NCBI GenBank assembly: GCA_000310025.1
Contig: FN649735.1
Span: forward strand, 3,939,660 to 4,003,659
From: Ectocarpus siliculosus
Lineage: Eukaryota > Sar > Phaeophyceae > Ectocarpales > Ectocarpaceae
Length of the DNA stretch: 64,000 nt
Reading direction: 5' to 3'
Each line of letters begins with the position of its first letter. Position 1 is the stretch's first letter. Below, in pieces: positions 52,088 through 64,000 of this stretch. Under the pieces are notes generated by a model, which was given only the letters and a program-made list of their open reading frames with translations, searched no databases and was not told where the DNA came from. Both the position numbers and the translations under genes were made by a program.

Positions 52088-55000
52088 TTACTTGGACTTG
52101 TTGCTGATGAAGTCGTTGACGTTGAAGCTCCTGATGATGTCCAGCAGGTGTTTGAGCCGATGCTTGTTAAGATGCTTTGTCCCGATGTCAGCAGGGTTGC
52201 TTTCCGTCGGGATGTAATGGATCGATATCCGTCCTTCCGATACTAGCTCTCGGATGTAAAAGAAACGAAGGGCGATATGTTTTGTCCTCGAGCTAAAGGA
52301 GCGGTTTCCAAGCGCGTGCAGCGTCGCCGTGTTGTCGCAGTACAGCGGCACTTGCGCAAACTCCTTACCGAACCCTAGCTCAGTTAGCATGTTAGAACAG
52401 AACACTGCTTCCTTCAAGGCTAGTGCCGATGCAATCAGCTCTGCCTCCATGGTAGACATGGCAGTTGGACCTTGTATCCCCGACTTAAAACTCACCGGTG
52501 CATTGCCTAGCATCGTCAAGTAGCAAGAGGTGGACTTTCCGTTGTCAGGGTTGTTCGCCCAGTTGGAGTCCGAAAAGGTCGCAAGCTTGAAGCCTCCAAC
52601 CTTGTACGTGATTCTAAAATCCATGGTGCCGGCCAGATAGCGAAGAGTGTGTTTAGCTGCCACCATGTGGATCTTGCTGGGCTTCGCCATTGCACGGGCC
52701 AGTTGACCCGTAGCGTACATGATGTCGTAGCGGAGCACTTGAGCGATGTACATCAGGCACCCCACGATGCCCTGATAACGTCGCGTTTCCTCCTCGCCTA
52801 GCAGAGTGTCCTCTGGTTGCTTGTTGGAGAGTTCCGAACCGTAGCCAGGCGTGCTGGTTGGTTTGCATTCAGACATCCCGAATCTTTCTAAGATGGACTT
52901 GCTGTACGCTTCTTGGGAAACCGTCAGTGTACCTTGGGTGCGGTCCCTCTTAATTTCCATACCCAAGACAAGCTTCACGTCGCCCATGTCTGCCATCTTG
53001 AACTTTAAATTTCTCCTTTATCATCAAGATGACATTTGCGTTGTTTCCGGCTAGAAGAAGATCGTCAACGTAGAGCGTCAAGTAGACTTGATCGTCGTCG
53101 TGGTCGTACAGGTAGACGCAAGTGTCAGACTTGAGAGGAACGAAACCTATCTCAACAAGGAAAGGGTCGATGGTGTGGAACAAGTTACTGGGGCTTTGGG
53201 CCAGCCCGTAGAGGCTCTTCTGTAGCTGCATCACTAGATCACCTCCATCCTTGTCCTTGACCTCGAAGCCAGGTGGCTGTTCGACGAACACGTTCTCCAG
53301 GATGTCCGCGTAGAGGAAGGCTGTGGACGCGTCCATTTGATCCAACTCCAGGTTGAATTGCACGGCTATGCACGCTAACATCCGAATGCTCTGTAACCTG
53401 CACACCGGAGCGTAGGTGCTGCCGCAGTCCAGGCCAGGCACTTGGTTCCAGCCTTGTGCCACTAGACGCCCCTTGAAGGAGCCGTCTGCCTTACGCTTGA
53501 ACACCCATTTGGACTTAATCCGCTTCCTCCCTTGGGGAACTGCCTTGCGCGGGACGAGCTTGTACACTTGACGTTCCTTGAGACTCGCGATCTCGCGTTC
53601 TGCAGCTGCGTTCCACTGCGGTCCGTCCGGCATGGCCCTTGCGTCTTGGATCGTTCGTGGAACATCCGGTTGGGATGCCCCCATAGCGTACGCATATTCC
53701 GTGAAACCAAAGGAGCCGTCCCTATGGGCAACGTCAGGGAACTCCCCTTTCGCGGTAAATGCGTAGGAGATACGACGAAGCTCGCGGATGGTCTTTGAGG
53801 TGGGCATGCGCGAACTCGACCTGGTGACAGCAGGTGCCGACGTGGATCCTCGTCCACCACGAGAACCACTTCCACTTGCCGAGCCGCGACCTCCACGTGG
53901 CGTGATGCCTCCCTGCGCAGATCCTCCTCGCGAAGATCCACCACGAGCACTTCGGCCACCACGAGACAAACCGCGCCCACGCGCAGATCCACCCCGCGGT
54001 ACAGCACTAGACGGTGCAGGACCAGAAGGCGATGAACCAAGCGGCGCCGAATCAGGTGACGAACCAGGAGGAGACGCACCGTCATCCGTTTCAAGGGGGT
54101 TTACTCCCCCAGGCGAGGCAGGGCTACCTCCCGTAGGTGTACCACCAGAAGTCCTAGACGCGTCGTCGTTGGGAGCAGTTCCTGCAGGACTAACCCCAAG
54201 GTCACGTTTGGTTGTCGCACGGATTAGCTCTTGAAGCTCAATCACAGGTATGTCCCCAACGTCATGATCAGGAGAGAGCGAATCAACTGAGTGGTTGAAA
54301 GTGTAGTTTCGCACGTCTCTTACCATGTCGTCGTGGTTGTCGTACGTGAACTCCCCGCCGTCGAAGCCACCCTCATCCAACGCAGGTGCAACGGGAGGTG
54401 TCTCAATGAAGACAACATTTCGACTCACCCGTACACGTCGCGTCTCAGAGTTGTAGATCCGGTACGACTTGCTGTCCATGCTGTATCCGACAAGGCGTCC
54501 TTCCCAAGCACGATGCTCCATCTTCCTGGTGTGGGTCTCTTCGTGCACGAACGCCCTTGATCCTATCACCCGAAGGTGACCAAGGTAGGCATCCTTGCCG
54601 TAGAGGGCCGTGTACGGCGTCCCGTTTTGCAGGGCTGCATGAGGAACCCGGTTGCTCAGGTAGACTGCCGTCTGGATCAGCTCCCCCCAAAGGAAGTTCG
54701 GTAGAGTTGAGTCAGCGAGCAGACAGCGCACGATATTCAAAATCGTCCGACCCGCACGCTCGTTCGCTCCGATCTGCTGAGGGGTGTTTGGAGAGGCGAA
54801 CTCCAGCTTGATGCCGATATCTTGACAGTACTGACGGAATTCCGCACTCGTGAATTATGTGCCTTGATCCCCGCGGAGGCAATGAATGCGTTCGCCGGTA
54901 GGAACCACGGTCCCTTTGTTGAACAACGCGAGGGAGTCTACAGAACAGGTCTGGTCCTTCATGAGTACTATCTCCGCCCACTTGGTCTGCTGGTCGACGA

Positions 55001-56190
55001 ACTTGGTGGCATACTTGAATCCGCCCAACGCTGTAGGCGTGAAGGGGCCAAGGGTATCGACGGAAACGTGTTGGAAGGGGCGCAAGACGCCGTAGGTGGC
55101 CTGCTTTGGATGAGGTTGTTGTGCGCTCTTTCCGAGCGGGCAGACACTGCAGTCCTTCACTTCTCCGGTGTAGTCGACGCCGTTGACCGGTTCTTTCCTT
55201 AGAACGTCCAAGCTCTTGCCGTTGATGTGCCCCATGCGCCGGTGCCAGAGACCAGCGGACTCCACCTTCAAGGCGAGGGCTTCAGGGGCGTCTCCGAGGA
55301 CCGTCGGGCCGCCAGGTTCACCCCCTAACTTCACCTCGATGGAGTAGACGCATTTTCTGGCCGTGGCGTCCACCCCGAGGTTCTGCATCGGGAAAACCAC
55401 GTCACCCGACTCCAACCTGGGGTTGTCCGGATGAAACATCGTCGCCACCCCCTTTAGCATCGCCAATGTCACACAGAAGAGGTTGGTGCCCAGTCCTGGT
55501 ACCATGATGACGCGAAAGGAGACGTGCCGGTCGTTTCCTTTGTCATCCGTGACAGCGCCGAAGATAGTCCCCGTCGCAACACCTTTGAGGACATGCTGGC
55601 CCGCGGCGACGATCTGGTGTGGAACCCGAAGGTGTTCGACGTCGCGCATATGAGCCCGCAATCCTGGTGTAAGCCCAGGGTCGAGGTAGTTGTCTGTCGC
55701 TCCACTGTCCACAACCATCCGGATGGACGAACCGTTGGAGCGAAAAGGAGCAAGCGACAACTCTGCATGAGTCGCCATGAACGCACCGAAGAAGCCTGAA
55801 GGCAGTCGGTGGTCCTGCGCACTCGACGTTGATGAGGCAGATGCAGGTGCCGCCTGTGTGGCGGCAGACGCCGCCGAAGGCGGCTGGGAAGAGGCAGACG
55901 ACGAGGTTGCCTCCTCCAAGGAAGTTCCGAGGGCGTTGAAAGAGAATCCGAACGAAGTAGGCTCTGTCAGAGCCTGTTGCGCCACCGCCGGAGACGATTG
56001 CGCCAGGTGAGCACTCCCGATATTTGGGAGTTGCAGAAAGTTGGCATGGCCTGCTGACTGCAGGAGCACCAAGTTCGCCGCCAACCCTTCAAGCTCATTT
56101 TGCTTGTCGAAGCTTGATCTTGGCGTGGAGGATGATTGCTTGTCGAAGCTTGATCTTCCACTCGCGAAAACCCGAATGTCCCGCGCATTT
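52088..56190 (-). pseudogene. Copia pol polyprotein (protease, integrase, reverse transcriptase, RNase H), broken
   Basis: Protease: VVDSGATDNYLDPG (active DSG). The GAG-pre-integrase zinc finger is LWHRRMGHINGKS with DCSVCPLGK (H-x4-H, C-x2-C). The integrase core begins VSVDTLGPFTPTALGG. A TAA at 54855-54857 cuts the integrase just after RGDQGT; homologous sequence resumes immediately in the same frame. Reverse transcriptase has KSKWVFKRKADGSFKG and LYVDDLLLAGN. At about 52990-53005 the frame shifts by +1 before the RNase H/connection part (VKLVLGMEIKRD, YCDNTATLHAL, ADIGTKHL), which ends at 52088. A long Gly/Ser/Arg-rich linker lies between integrase and reverse transcriptase. Two independent breaks make this copy unlikely to be active by itself. 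Confidence 0.92.
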
Positions 56191-58493: not shown

Positions 58494-59141
58494 ATGGGAA
58501 AAAACGACAAGTTGTGTGCTGCCCCAGCCTGCCCCAAACGGCCATCATTTGCTGCAGCAGGGTCCAAACCGGAGTACTGCTCTGCACATTCGAAAGAGGG
58601 GATGGTGGACGTCAGGAACAAGAAGTGCGCCCACCCTGGCTGCACCAAAAACCCTACATTTGGTACGGAAGAGACTTTTACCAGGATTTTCTGTGCTACA
58701 CACCGCGAGCAAGGAATGGTATCCCTCACCGGTAGGCGCCGCCGGGAGAAAACACCAAGAAGACCGGACAAAAAACCGAGGGCAGATCTTTCACACTCAA
58801 GAATTTCTGAACAGTCCAAATCCTCTGCTGATGGTAGGGGGCGCGGCGGATATGAGGGCGGTTTGTCCACGAATCTGGGCGATGGACCCGCCCACCACGA
58901 TTCTGCCAACGAACGGTGGAGGGATCGCGATCCATCGTTCTCCAAGAAGCAACCGTCCGCGGACCGTTCCACCGAGCCGAAGAAGAAGCGAGCCCGCCGG
59001 CCAGAGGACACTCAGCTTGCTAGGCCGTTGGCTACAGCAGCAACAGAGGATGACCAGGCTACGTCCACTGCTGCTGTGGACGCCGGGAGGTGGGTGTCGA
59101 CGGGGGGGAACCACTGGGTATTTCACCCATGGGGCATGTGA
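58494..59141 (+). CDS. EsV-1-7 domain protein (IMMEDIATE UPRIGHT family), two repeats
   Basis: A complete 215-residue uninterrupted ORF. Two cysteine/histidine repeats: residues 8-32 (C-x4-C-x15-C-x2-H) and 45-70 (C-x4-C-x16-C-x2-H), each followed by EGM or QGMV; the second includes CTKNPTFGTEETF. This is the EsV-1-7 motif, first named from an Ectocarpus virus protein and found in IMMEDIATE UPRIGHT, a regulator of early sporophyte development; the family is large in brown algae. The motif probably binds zinc. The rest is polar and disordered with a nuclear-signal-like EPKKKRARRPED near residue 160. Most likely a nuclear regulator, inferred from the family. The start is the first ATG, just before the first repeat. 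Confidence 0.85.
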   Translation: MGKNDKLCAAPACPKRPSFAAAGSKPEYCSAHSKEGMVDVRNKKCAHPGCTKNPTFGTEETFTRIFCATHREQGMVSLTGRRRREKTPRRPDKKPRADLSHSRISEQSKSSADGRGRGGYEGGLSTNLGDGPAHHDSANERWRDRDPSFSKKQPSADRSTEPKKKRARRPEDTQLARPLATAATEDDQATSTAAVDAGRWVSTGGNHWVFHPWGM

Positions 59142-60006: not shown

Positions 60007-61767
60007 TGCCGCAGGGAACACGTGAACACGAACAACCTTTCCTCGGAAGTAGACTCGTGAGGGAAGGAGATACCAGAAGCAGCACGTTGACCATCCTCCT
60101 TGACGACCTCGATGCATGCTCGCATCTACTGTACGAAGCGATCAAAATTGTACCCTGAGAACGAAATCCATGCGTACGTGCCAATCTATCAATTCTGGGC
60201 TACTTTTTTATCCACTTGCCAGCAGCTAGAGGCACACACTTGAGTGGGCCTCACCACCATCGTGATGTGTTCTTCCTCGCGTCGCCTTCGCTAACAAACA
60301 AAACGTTGTCCTACCGGTAGCATGTAGCAGCAGGCCAGCACGACCACATACAAGCGCGGCAGATAGGTGGCATCGTTGCCCCGAAAGAGCTCGCCTCACG
60401 TAAATTGACTGGTCTTCTCTTTCCGTGGACCTGTGCCTGTAAGCTCCACTTTCATTCCTGGAGAATATAAGACGTTTACGTGCCAAAACGCCGAGGCACA
60501 ATACTTGCCGTTGCCAGCCCTGCGCCGTGTCACCCTTGAGTTTCGGAGGACAGAACGATACATCGGGCGGCTTCGAGTCTGGCCGGGGGGCAAATCCCCC
60601 GGCCTGTTTTTCTAACTGCATTTTGACAGCAATGTGATGCTCTCGCTCGGTCCATGCATCCGTCAGGTGACACCAGACGCAAGGGAGAAAGGGTCCCGAC
60701 CTGTGGCATGGTACAGATGCAACTATCACGGCCTTGCATCGCTGGAAGAAGCCTCCAACGACGCAAGTATATACTTTTCCAATAACGAGAGCGTGTACGG
60801 TGGAGGTGTGCCTAGTGTGCCACTGTTTGCGGTGCAGATGTATTTGTTCGGAGTTGGCGGCGCAACATGGTGGGCTCACCATCCGACAAGTATGTGTTGA
60901 TACGGCCAAATGTTTGACGCTGGCTGGGCACCGCGCTTGGTTCTGTACTGTCGTCATCGTATGAAGGAGCGGATCTGGGAATAGGTATGGGGGCATAGAT
61001 ACAATGGACCGGGACGAAGAGGTCCGTCCGTAGATGAGATGGGTGACGCTTGATGTTTGCTATGTGCTGGTACATTAACTTCTACTAGTTTAGGGCAGGT
61101 CAGCACAACTACTATTCAGTAGTATAGTTGGTTGTTTTTTTGTTTCGCGCCGTGAAATTTTGGGGTTCACTATGAACCATTTTGTGTTTGTTTCGTGGTT
61201 TTCTTGTCCTCCGTCAGTGGGCCAGCTTCGAGGCTCACATTAAGGTGGTCACCTGGTGTTGGATGCCAAGGAATCAACCGCGTCTATCTACGCTTTTTTT
61301 GTCGACCGACCGACGAGCGAACATTCATTTGGTAATCAGCTTTGTTTGGGACATTGGTGTTGCGGGGCTAGTCCCTTGCTTACAAAGACTACAGCGACGG
61401 GGGGGAGGCTGTTTAGTGCCGATATGTGCCCAGAGCGTGACTCTCCCAGAAGAGCATTGACCGGCACTATTCCTGGACACCGTCACCATTTTTCAACGGG
61501 CCACACTTTATTATTAGTATACAGTTGGCGCCCGCAATTAAGAAACATTTTGGTAAGAAATTGAGGCTCACTTTTTCCCGAAAAATAAGAAAATAGGGTT
61601 AAGGCCATTTCTTGAGGTTGTCTTTTTTTATGATCTTTTTCTTTTTTCCTTCTCAAAAAAAGACAACTGGCCGTAGAAGGTCTTCTTACAATGTCTTTTT
61701 TCCTCAAAAAAAGATCGCCAGAAAAAGACAACCCGTTTTGGACAGCCCATCCTGTCTTTTTTGGGGG

Positions 61768-61800
61768 CAGTTTTGGACAAGTGGAGGCTGTCCAAAACTG
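61768..61800. repeat. Perfect 12-bp hairpin
   Basis: CAGTTTTGGACA at 61768-61779 pairs with TGTCCAAAACTG at 61789-61800 across a 9-base loop. Around it (61618-61815) runs of GTCTTTTTT and AAAAAAGAC alternate and can pair too, giving a compound foldback. Confidence 0.85.
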
Positions 61801-62040
61801 TTGTCTTTTTTTGGTCACAACCATATCACTCGTACCTAGAAACTTGAATCTCTCGAAGGCCCACCGCAAACTCTAACGGTGGTCACACGAGTTGTGTCAT
61901 GTTGCTGGCTGGTACAGAGTCGGTGGCACCGGCGGTAGCCAATGTTTTTTCAGTGGGCTGGACCAGGTGGACAACCCGATGTGTGCGGCAAACAAGAGGC
62001 AAACAAACCGAGAGAGCCTGGACGCAGCAGCGGTGGGTCA

Positions 62041-62219
62041 TTTTGTGATTTGCTCAAGAAATTTGGATTATTAGAAAAAGCGACAAGAAATCAGAAACGC
62101 CGAAACCAAGAAATATCAAAACCAAAATCCAACCTATGAACCGAACCATTGACTTCCTCTCGGACTCACTAGGTATCACTTATCGGGCCAACCCGACGTC
62201 TATGCCCAGGTCATATCCC
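62041..62219 (-). repeat. 179-bp direct repeat, copy B2
   Basis: Identical base for base to 62588-62766. It begins TTTTGTGATTTGCTCAAG and ends GGTCATATCCC. Confidence 0.95.
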
Positions 62220-62587
62220 CATACACACAAAAGTCAACGCAAATTGGAGAACAAATTTGGCACTAGACAGATTTTTCTCTTCCCATTGATCCCTCCTCTC
62301 TTGAGCGACAGGGTGGGTGGGTGGGAAAATTCGATCAAGTCCCAAACGAAAACTCTTTTCTCTCGCTGCTGCTTTGCTGCACTGCCTTTGCGGGCGATGC
62401 AACGTTTTTCCCTTCGAGGTCCTCGGCTTCCCAAGGATCCCAAAAGCTTCTGCCAACCTCTCTCTCTTCTCTGTACCCTGTACATAGCTATACCCCCGTA
62501 TACCCTTTTTTGTCTCTCGCCGCTCTTTCACGAAATTTCCGGTACGCTTCCACAAACCACGGATTCACGGTTATACCGAATCCTTCG

Positions 62588-62766
62588 TTTTGTGATTTGC
62601 TCAAGAAATTTGGATTATTAGAAAAAGCGACAAGAAATCAGAAACGCCGAAACCAAGAAATATCAAAACCAAAATCCAACCTATGAACCGAACCATTGAC
62701 TTCCTCTCGGACTCACTAGGTATCACTTATCGGGCCAACCCGACGTCTATGCCCAGGTCATATCCC
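62588..62766 (-). repeat. 179-bp direct repeat, copy B1
   Basis: Exact copy of 62041-62219, about 50 bp from the recombinase stop codon. The perfect identity implies a recent duplication or copying during replication of the element. Confidence 0.95.
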
Positions 62767-62814
62767 ACTGCGCGGCCCGATATTCGGCGCTCTTGTCCAC
62801 GCTGTTTCTCCCCT

Positions 62815-63948
62815 TCAACTAGACGCTAGTGCGCGCGATACATAATTAGCGCCTTCCCCTCCTGCCCTAACGTACGTCATAAAGGCTCCTGACTTCCACC
62901 TTCCCGCCCTCTGAATCTGAATAACCGATGCGCCCTGCTTTGCTAGTTGCGTCGCACCACCTATCCTCCCTGAGTGTAGCGCGAAGTGCGTTGGGTTTTC
63001 TCCTACTCTTCTCGCCATGTCTCTCAACGCTGTTGTTGCTTCCGACCTCGACACTACTGCCCACCGTCCCTGCTTGACCGACTGCATGAGCGGCGCGGTA
63101 CTTCCTAACTCTGGGTGCACGTCAAGCAGATTCAGCAAAATCTCGAGCGCCCCCATCTTCTCAGCCATCTGTCCCACTTCCTCGTCCCGCGTTACTCTCT
63201 CTCTCGTCACTACCGCGCCTCGCCTTTTTTGGTCCGCTTTTGATGCGCGAAAAGTCACTTCTACTCTGTCTGCCCGCCTTCTTTCGTCCCACGCTAGCCG
63301 ACACGATCCTTCGAAGAATACAAGGTTCCCCCTCGTACGACAAAAATCGGCGTGTACTAATCCGTTGTGGTAGGCCCACAGCTCAGACGCTCGGCACAGC
63401 AAGAAATACGAGAGAGCGATCCCCATCCACGTCACTAGTCTGAAAACATCCGTCAGCGCTCTTTCTCTCCCTGCTATAATCATCGGCACGGTGAGCGGTT
63501 GCCTTACCAACTGTTTCGTCTCTGCCCTCGCATGCAGTCTGTCTATTGCGTTCCCAACAGCTGCCACTCTGAAGTGCGACGTGGGCAGCTCCCAGCCTGC
63601 GTACAGTTTATGGAAGTACTTGATAGCCGCGAGGTACCCCTTCACCGTTTGGCTCTGGTTCTTATACACTAAGCACCTCGATGCCATAAACACAGTCAGC
63701 TCTCTCACTGCGCTATCCACGCCGTCCTCCTCGTACAACCATGGACTCAGATTCGCTTTAGCTCTTTCATCTGTCCACGTGTCCCACTTGCTGTGGTATC
63801 CTTTCAGCGTGCTCGCGTTCAGGGAGCCGTGCTCCATTATCCTGAGGAGCCTTTCGCCTTCATCGCTCGTTCCTTTCGTCCCGTGTTCGCTTCCTGTACT
63901 TGAACACGTTAGGGTCATTACACCTTCTTTAGTTCTTTTGCCCATCAT
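62815..63948 (-). CDS. Tyrosine recombinase (DIRS/Ngaro-type integrase)
   Basis: A 377-residue ORF ending in RALASS. Tyrosine recombinases cut and rejoin DNA through a covalent phosphotyrosine; in DIRS-like elements they insert the circular cDNA. An N-terminal SAM-like core-binding part (TLKGYHSKWDTWTDERAK; QTVKGYLAAIKYFHK) is followed by the catalytic part: first Arg in LLCRASELWAY, a Lys-bearing strand VEVTFRASKADQKR, then ALHSGRIGGATQLAKQG (H-x-x-R), RAGRWKSGAF (Trp in the second His position) and the nucleophile Tyr in MTYVR. All catalytic positions are present and the frame is intact, so the protein could be active. The frame stays open upstream of the ATG to the window edge, so the real start may lie beyond 64000. 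Confidence 0.85.
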   Translation of the reverse strand: MMGKRTKEGVMTLTCSSTGSEHGTKGTSDEGERLLRIMEHGSLNASTLKGYHSKWDTWTDERAKANLSPWLYEEDGVDSAVRELTVFMASRCLVYKNQSQTVKGYLAAIKYFHKLYAGWELPTSHFRVAAVGNAIDRLHARAETKQLVRQPLTVPMIIAGRERALTDVFRLVTWMGIALSYFLLCRASELWAYHNGLVHADFCRTRGNLVFFEGSCRLAWDERRRADRVEVTFRASKADQKRRGAVVTRERVTRDEEVGQMAEKMGALEILLNLLDVHPELGSTAPLMQSVKQGRWAVVSRSEATTALRDMARRVGENPTHFALHSGRIGGATQLAKQGASVIQIQRAGRWKSGAFMTYVRAGGEGANYVSRALASS

Positions 63949-64000
63949 TCTCGTCTTACTCTTATTACTTCTTTTCTTTACACGCTTGCCATGCGGCTCC

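Follow-up and report, generated by a model that had tools for sequence, protein, structure and literature searches.

Organization of the locus

The window is the whole 64,000 nt stretch of DNA that was analysed (G000:C10:3939660–4003659), and the genome searched is the corresponding 189.5-Mb assembly of 492 contigs. At the right end of the window, on the minus strand, is a tyrosine recombinase (YR) ORF at positions 62815–63999. It has 394 codons in the window with no stop and is open at the window edge; its identification is based on the frame, domain matches and catalytic residues. The full catalytic set is present, i.e., Arg186, Lys237, His325-x-x-Arg328, Trp351 and Tyr359, numbered from an ATG at 63948 (codons at 63391–63393, 63238–63240, 62974–62976, 62965–62967, 62896–62898 and 62872–62874, respectively). 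An earlier in-frame ATG is located just beyond the window edge. The complete frame of another copy reads ...WPRMEPHGKR, and the first codon in the window corresponds to the E. The C-terminal part of the protein matches the phage integrase family phrog_1 (E 0.0009) and Phage_integrase (PF00589, E 0.009, below the curated cut-off). In a PDB sequence search the only mechanistically sensible matches were Cre chains, with E about 0.03; ankyrin and designed-repeat matches were rejected as composition noise, and a single-sequence AlphaFold2 model was discarded (mean pLDDT 36).

Downstream of the ORF are two direct repeats, 62041–62219 and 62588–62766, that are identical over 179 bp and have 368 bp between them. 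An exact repeat of this length is far beyond chance. Direct comparison of the repeats, together with the 394-codon frame and its catalytic residues, bears out what a sequence-only reading of this DNA had reported, namely exact 179-bp repeats next to an intact recombinase gene.

Comparison with other copies of the element in the genome refined the repeat borders. The right-hand terminal repeat, B2, is 178 bp (62042–62219, minus strand), its end being set by seven 3' junctions and by the uninterrupted target. It is identical to B1 (62589–62766, minus strand) at 178 of 178 positions. Position 62041 is an A that is common to element and target. A2 is 262 bp (62327–62588, minus strand) and is 100% identical over its length to A1, the 5' end of the element, which is found at C10:4008226–4008487 (window-equivalent 68567–68828), approximately 4.6 kb past the window. 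Thus the copy of the spacer that the sequence-only reading had predicted to the right is present, but only in part: as only the 262 bp that follow the B1-A2 joint recur as A1, the 368-bp spacer consists of A2 and an unpaired segment of 107 bp (62220–62326, minus strand), which is missing from A1 and so has no counterpart at the 5' end. This 107-bp segment could hold, e.g., 3'-processing signals. All seven 3' junctions examined end in ...ATCACAAA with flanks that diverge after it, and the intact 5' junctions all start with ACGAAGG (copy L039 is without the first bases). The termini are therefore ACGAAGG...ATCACAAA. The B1|A2 junction, CACAAA|ACGAAGG, is the joint expected in a closed circle of the element.

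Several other features are present in the window. An EsV-1-7 gene fragment at 58494–59141 (plus strand) has two cysteine-rich motifs (PF19114, E 1.9e-29). EsV-1-7 genes are typical of brown algae and also occur in the phaeovirus EsV-1, and this domain gene backs the brown-alga host proposed from the sequence. A Copia-type gag/pre-integrase ORF (PF13976) at 54855–56084 (minus strand) is part of an LTR retrotransposon. A 70-bp inverted repeat (59747–59816/59937–60006, 91% complementary, 120 bp apart) is possibly a terminal-inverted-repeat element. A T-rich stretch at 61560–61830 displays repeated and inverted AAAAAAGACAACC-type motifs, with an inverted pair at 61722–61747/61786–61811.

Genome copies and coding regions

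The remainder of the element, Gag, RT/RNase H and A1, is to the right of the window, where an assembly gap covers most of it. A gap of 3,258 Ns (C10:4003660–4006917) directly follows the window end and separates it from A1. Because of this gap the RT/RNase H region is not visible here, and the 6.8 kb that the assembly shows is a nominal length. A search for more copies with the same ends, which had been proposed as a check, found at least a dozen in the genome. Copy L033 has no gap and measures 7,226 bp between the outer ends of A1 and B2, which shows a full element length of ~7.2 kb.

In copy L042 a 616-codon frame overlaps a 1,114-codon frame, and the YR follows. The 616-codon frame is glutamine-/proline-rich with a CCCH-type cluster, C-x8-C-x4-C-x3-H, and is taken as a putative Gag. 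The 1,114-codon frame has the RT motifs STADVNNAYRNV, YVDD and LGHTID and the RNase H motifs SDASFD, TLEL, RGDN and IPGRENTLADGISR. Sister copies have STADVNNAYR, YVDD and LGHTID in the RT, and the D-E-D-D residues of RNase H are in SDASFD, TLEL, RGDN and LADG. RT, YR and Gag all score below the curated cut-offs of Pfam. The RVT_1 match in sister copies covers the correct segment at a sub-threshold E of 0.13–0.2, and the RT assignment thus rests on motifs, position and linkage. A whole-genome RVT_1 profile search returned only the strongest matches, which are other retroelements. Neither the RT ORF nor an RT profile matched any PDB sequence, and no relatives were found among IMG/VR viral contigs and phages. 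Towards its N-terminus, the RT ORF contains an in-frame 120-bp (40-residue) tandem repeat whose copy number differs between element copies (5.8 at L042:5408–6099 and 4.8 at L033:4482–5053).

The gene order is conserved well beyond this family. Relatives were counted as matches at 36–68% identity, and in many of those at 36–64% the RT is directly followed by a YR of the same orientation. Many families with identities as low as 36–38% still have RT-like and YR-like matches as neighbours, in unchanged order and strand (e.g., C11:4993412/4995875, C14:656512/655420 and C315:9291/8272). The RT/RNase H expected to the right is found in sister copies, upstream of the YR, and divergent relatives have the same order; in the copy studied here the RT region falls in the gap. 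A related YR family with 37% identity and a 415-codon frame (e.g., C26:3448285–3449364) has dozens of nearly identical intact frames genome-wide; it seems to have expanded recently and to far greater numbers.

The A1/A2 and B1/B2 pairs of the present copy show no differences over 440 bp. Repeat pairs of other copies have 0 to about 13 mismatches, which indicates that the family has young and older members, and stops or frameshifts are present in many copies. The recent activity suggested by the sequence-only reading is a reasonable interpretation of the 440 identical repeat bp, but they are no proof of present activity. In L014 and L016 the flank is followed directly by A-spacer-B with no ORFs, and the B parts are truncated. 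These are solo A-B remnants, as would be expected from A1-A2 recombination. Repeats that occur apart from the recombinase had been named as grounds for rejecting the element; they do occur, but as remnants of this kind they do not count against it. Solo AB repeats are known in Cafeteria Ngaro elements (PMC8547959).

Target sites and insertion

The 3' flank (61881–62041) is part of another repeat family that hosts the element and has at least 36 uninterrupted copies elsewhere. Several copies of this flank family (61881–62040) have a second unit, 80–89% similar, ~220 bp upstream. When joined, the flanks of the element match uninterrupted target copies end to end (319 vs 320 bases). Copy L033 is inserted in a different repeat. 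Both host repeats survive intact at dozens of other places, which allows the precise product of each insertion to be deduced, and the uninterrupted target sites reveal the cleanness of insertion base by base.

For a conservative insertion, the length of the target's A-run should be the sum of the As at the two junctions less the four of the circle joint. The present copy gives 5 + 4 - 4 = 5 As, and ACACG-AAAAA-TGACCC is found in 36 of 38 uninterrupted copies. L033 gives 7 + 3 - 4 = 6 As, and CCAC-AAAAAA-CAGCAG is found in most of 35 uninterrupted copies. Neither insertion shows a target-site duplication, nor was any base lost. A further element, in L036, is nested within the A1 of another, again cleanly and with no duplication. 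Elements of this order typically insert without such duplications (PMC8969392). At the three positions to the left of the insertion point, A is present in 5, 8 and 6 of nine insertions. Such A-rich insertion points resemble the AAA of the circle joint, although nine insertions are a small sample and the homology is loose (GAT in L036).

In the established model for the class, an RNA without the extreme ends of the element would be copied into DNA, and the internal B1-A2 segment would template the B2-A1 joint to produce a closed circle. The YR would then recombine the A-run of the joint (CACAAAACGAAGG) with a short A-rich genomic site. The insertion products offer direct sequence support for conservative circle recombination, a step that in this class is usually only modelled.

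Classification of the element

The sequence properties make it highly probable that positions 62041–64000 (minus strand) represent the 3' end of a Ngaro-like YR retrotransposon, A1(262)-Gag-RT/RNase H-YR-B1(178)-A2(262)-spacer(107)-B2(178). The YR is the last ORF and has the R-K-HxxR-W/H-Y set, as is characteristic of Ngaro. The class assignment draws on the repeat layout, the Gag-RT/RNase H-YR order and the lack of room for a methyltransferase, and largely holds. In the textbook Ngaro layout A2 adjoins B2, and the 107-bp spacer departs from this. It is conceivable, but unlikely, that the element represents a layout variant with a conserved unpaired A2-B2 segment and an RT/RNase H lineage too divergent for standard profiles.

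Inside the window the recombinase and repeats alone are visible, as they would be for a DNA transposon of the Crypton type or for an isolated recombinase gene between unrelated direct repeats. This is extremely improbable, since A2 has its partner A1 at the opposite end of the element, and Gag and RT/RNase H are present in sister copies that share its ends; for the family, full-length copies with RT/RNase H rule out a Crypton, i.e., a YR without RT. The same split-direct-repeat layout would be seen in a DIRS-group element that is PAT-like or Toc3-like, and such elements are also reported from algae. In PAT elements, however, a methyltransferase is located after RNase H and before the YR. No methyltransferase match was found in sister copies with Pfam at E up to 1, and in L042 the RNase H and YR matches are 48 bp apart, so that YR follows RNase H almost directly and there is no room for the domain. 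The lack of the domain makes this element Ngaro-like rather than PAT-like. The B1-A2-B2 end was originally read as Ngaro/PAT; the split-repeat layout stands, and Ngaro is favoured over PAT. A PAT-like identity is quite improbable, even with five PAT-like families reported in Ectocarpus (PMC12477816). As the methyltransferase domain has been lost in some PAT lineages (PMC4157794), phylogeny could still place the element among PAT. Classification as Ngaro-like also drew on PMC9210276.

Comparison with known systems

DIRS1-like elements are likewise YR retrotransposons with RT/RNase H and no target-site duplication, but they have inverted terminal repeats and an internal complementary region. Both are missing here: a self-comparison of L031 shows A and B copies in direct orientation only. 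PAT-like elements have split direct repeats with internal repeats in common with this family and differ in the methyltransferase domain.

In Ectocarpus, Ngaro elements are described as 15 families that make up about 2.45% of the genome (PMC12477816), and the element, although real and correctly read, is thus an ordinary example of an established kind. Those families are of the same class, most likely from a related host, and abundant, and related YR genes found here are likewise many and near-identical. The present family may equal one of the 15. It adds a well-bounded young YR family, possibly one already catalogued, to a genome type rich in them. The Ngaro types 1–4 of Cafeteria burkhardae (PMC8547959) have the A1-[ORFs]-B1A2B2 organization and the Gag, RT/RNase H, YR order in common with this family. 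Their length is similar, about 6 kb, and solo AB repeats are found in both. The family described here differs in the extra 107 bp between A2 and B2, an RT under the Pfam cut-off and the 40-residue tandem repeat in ORF2.
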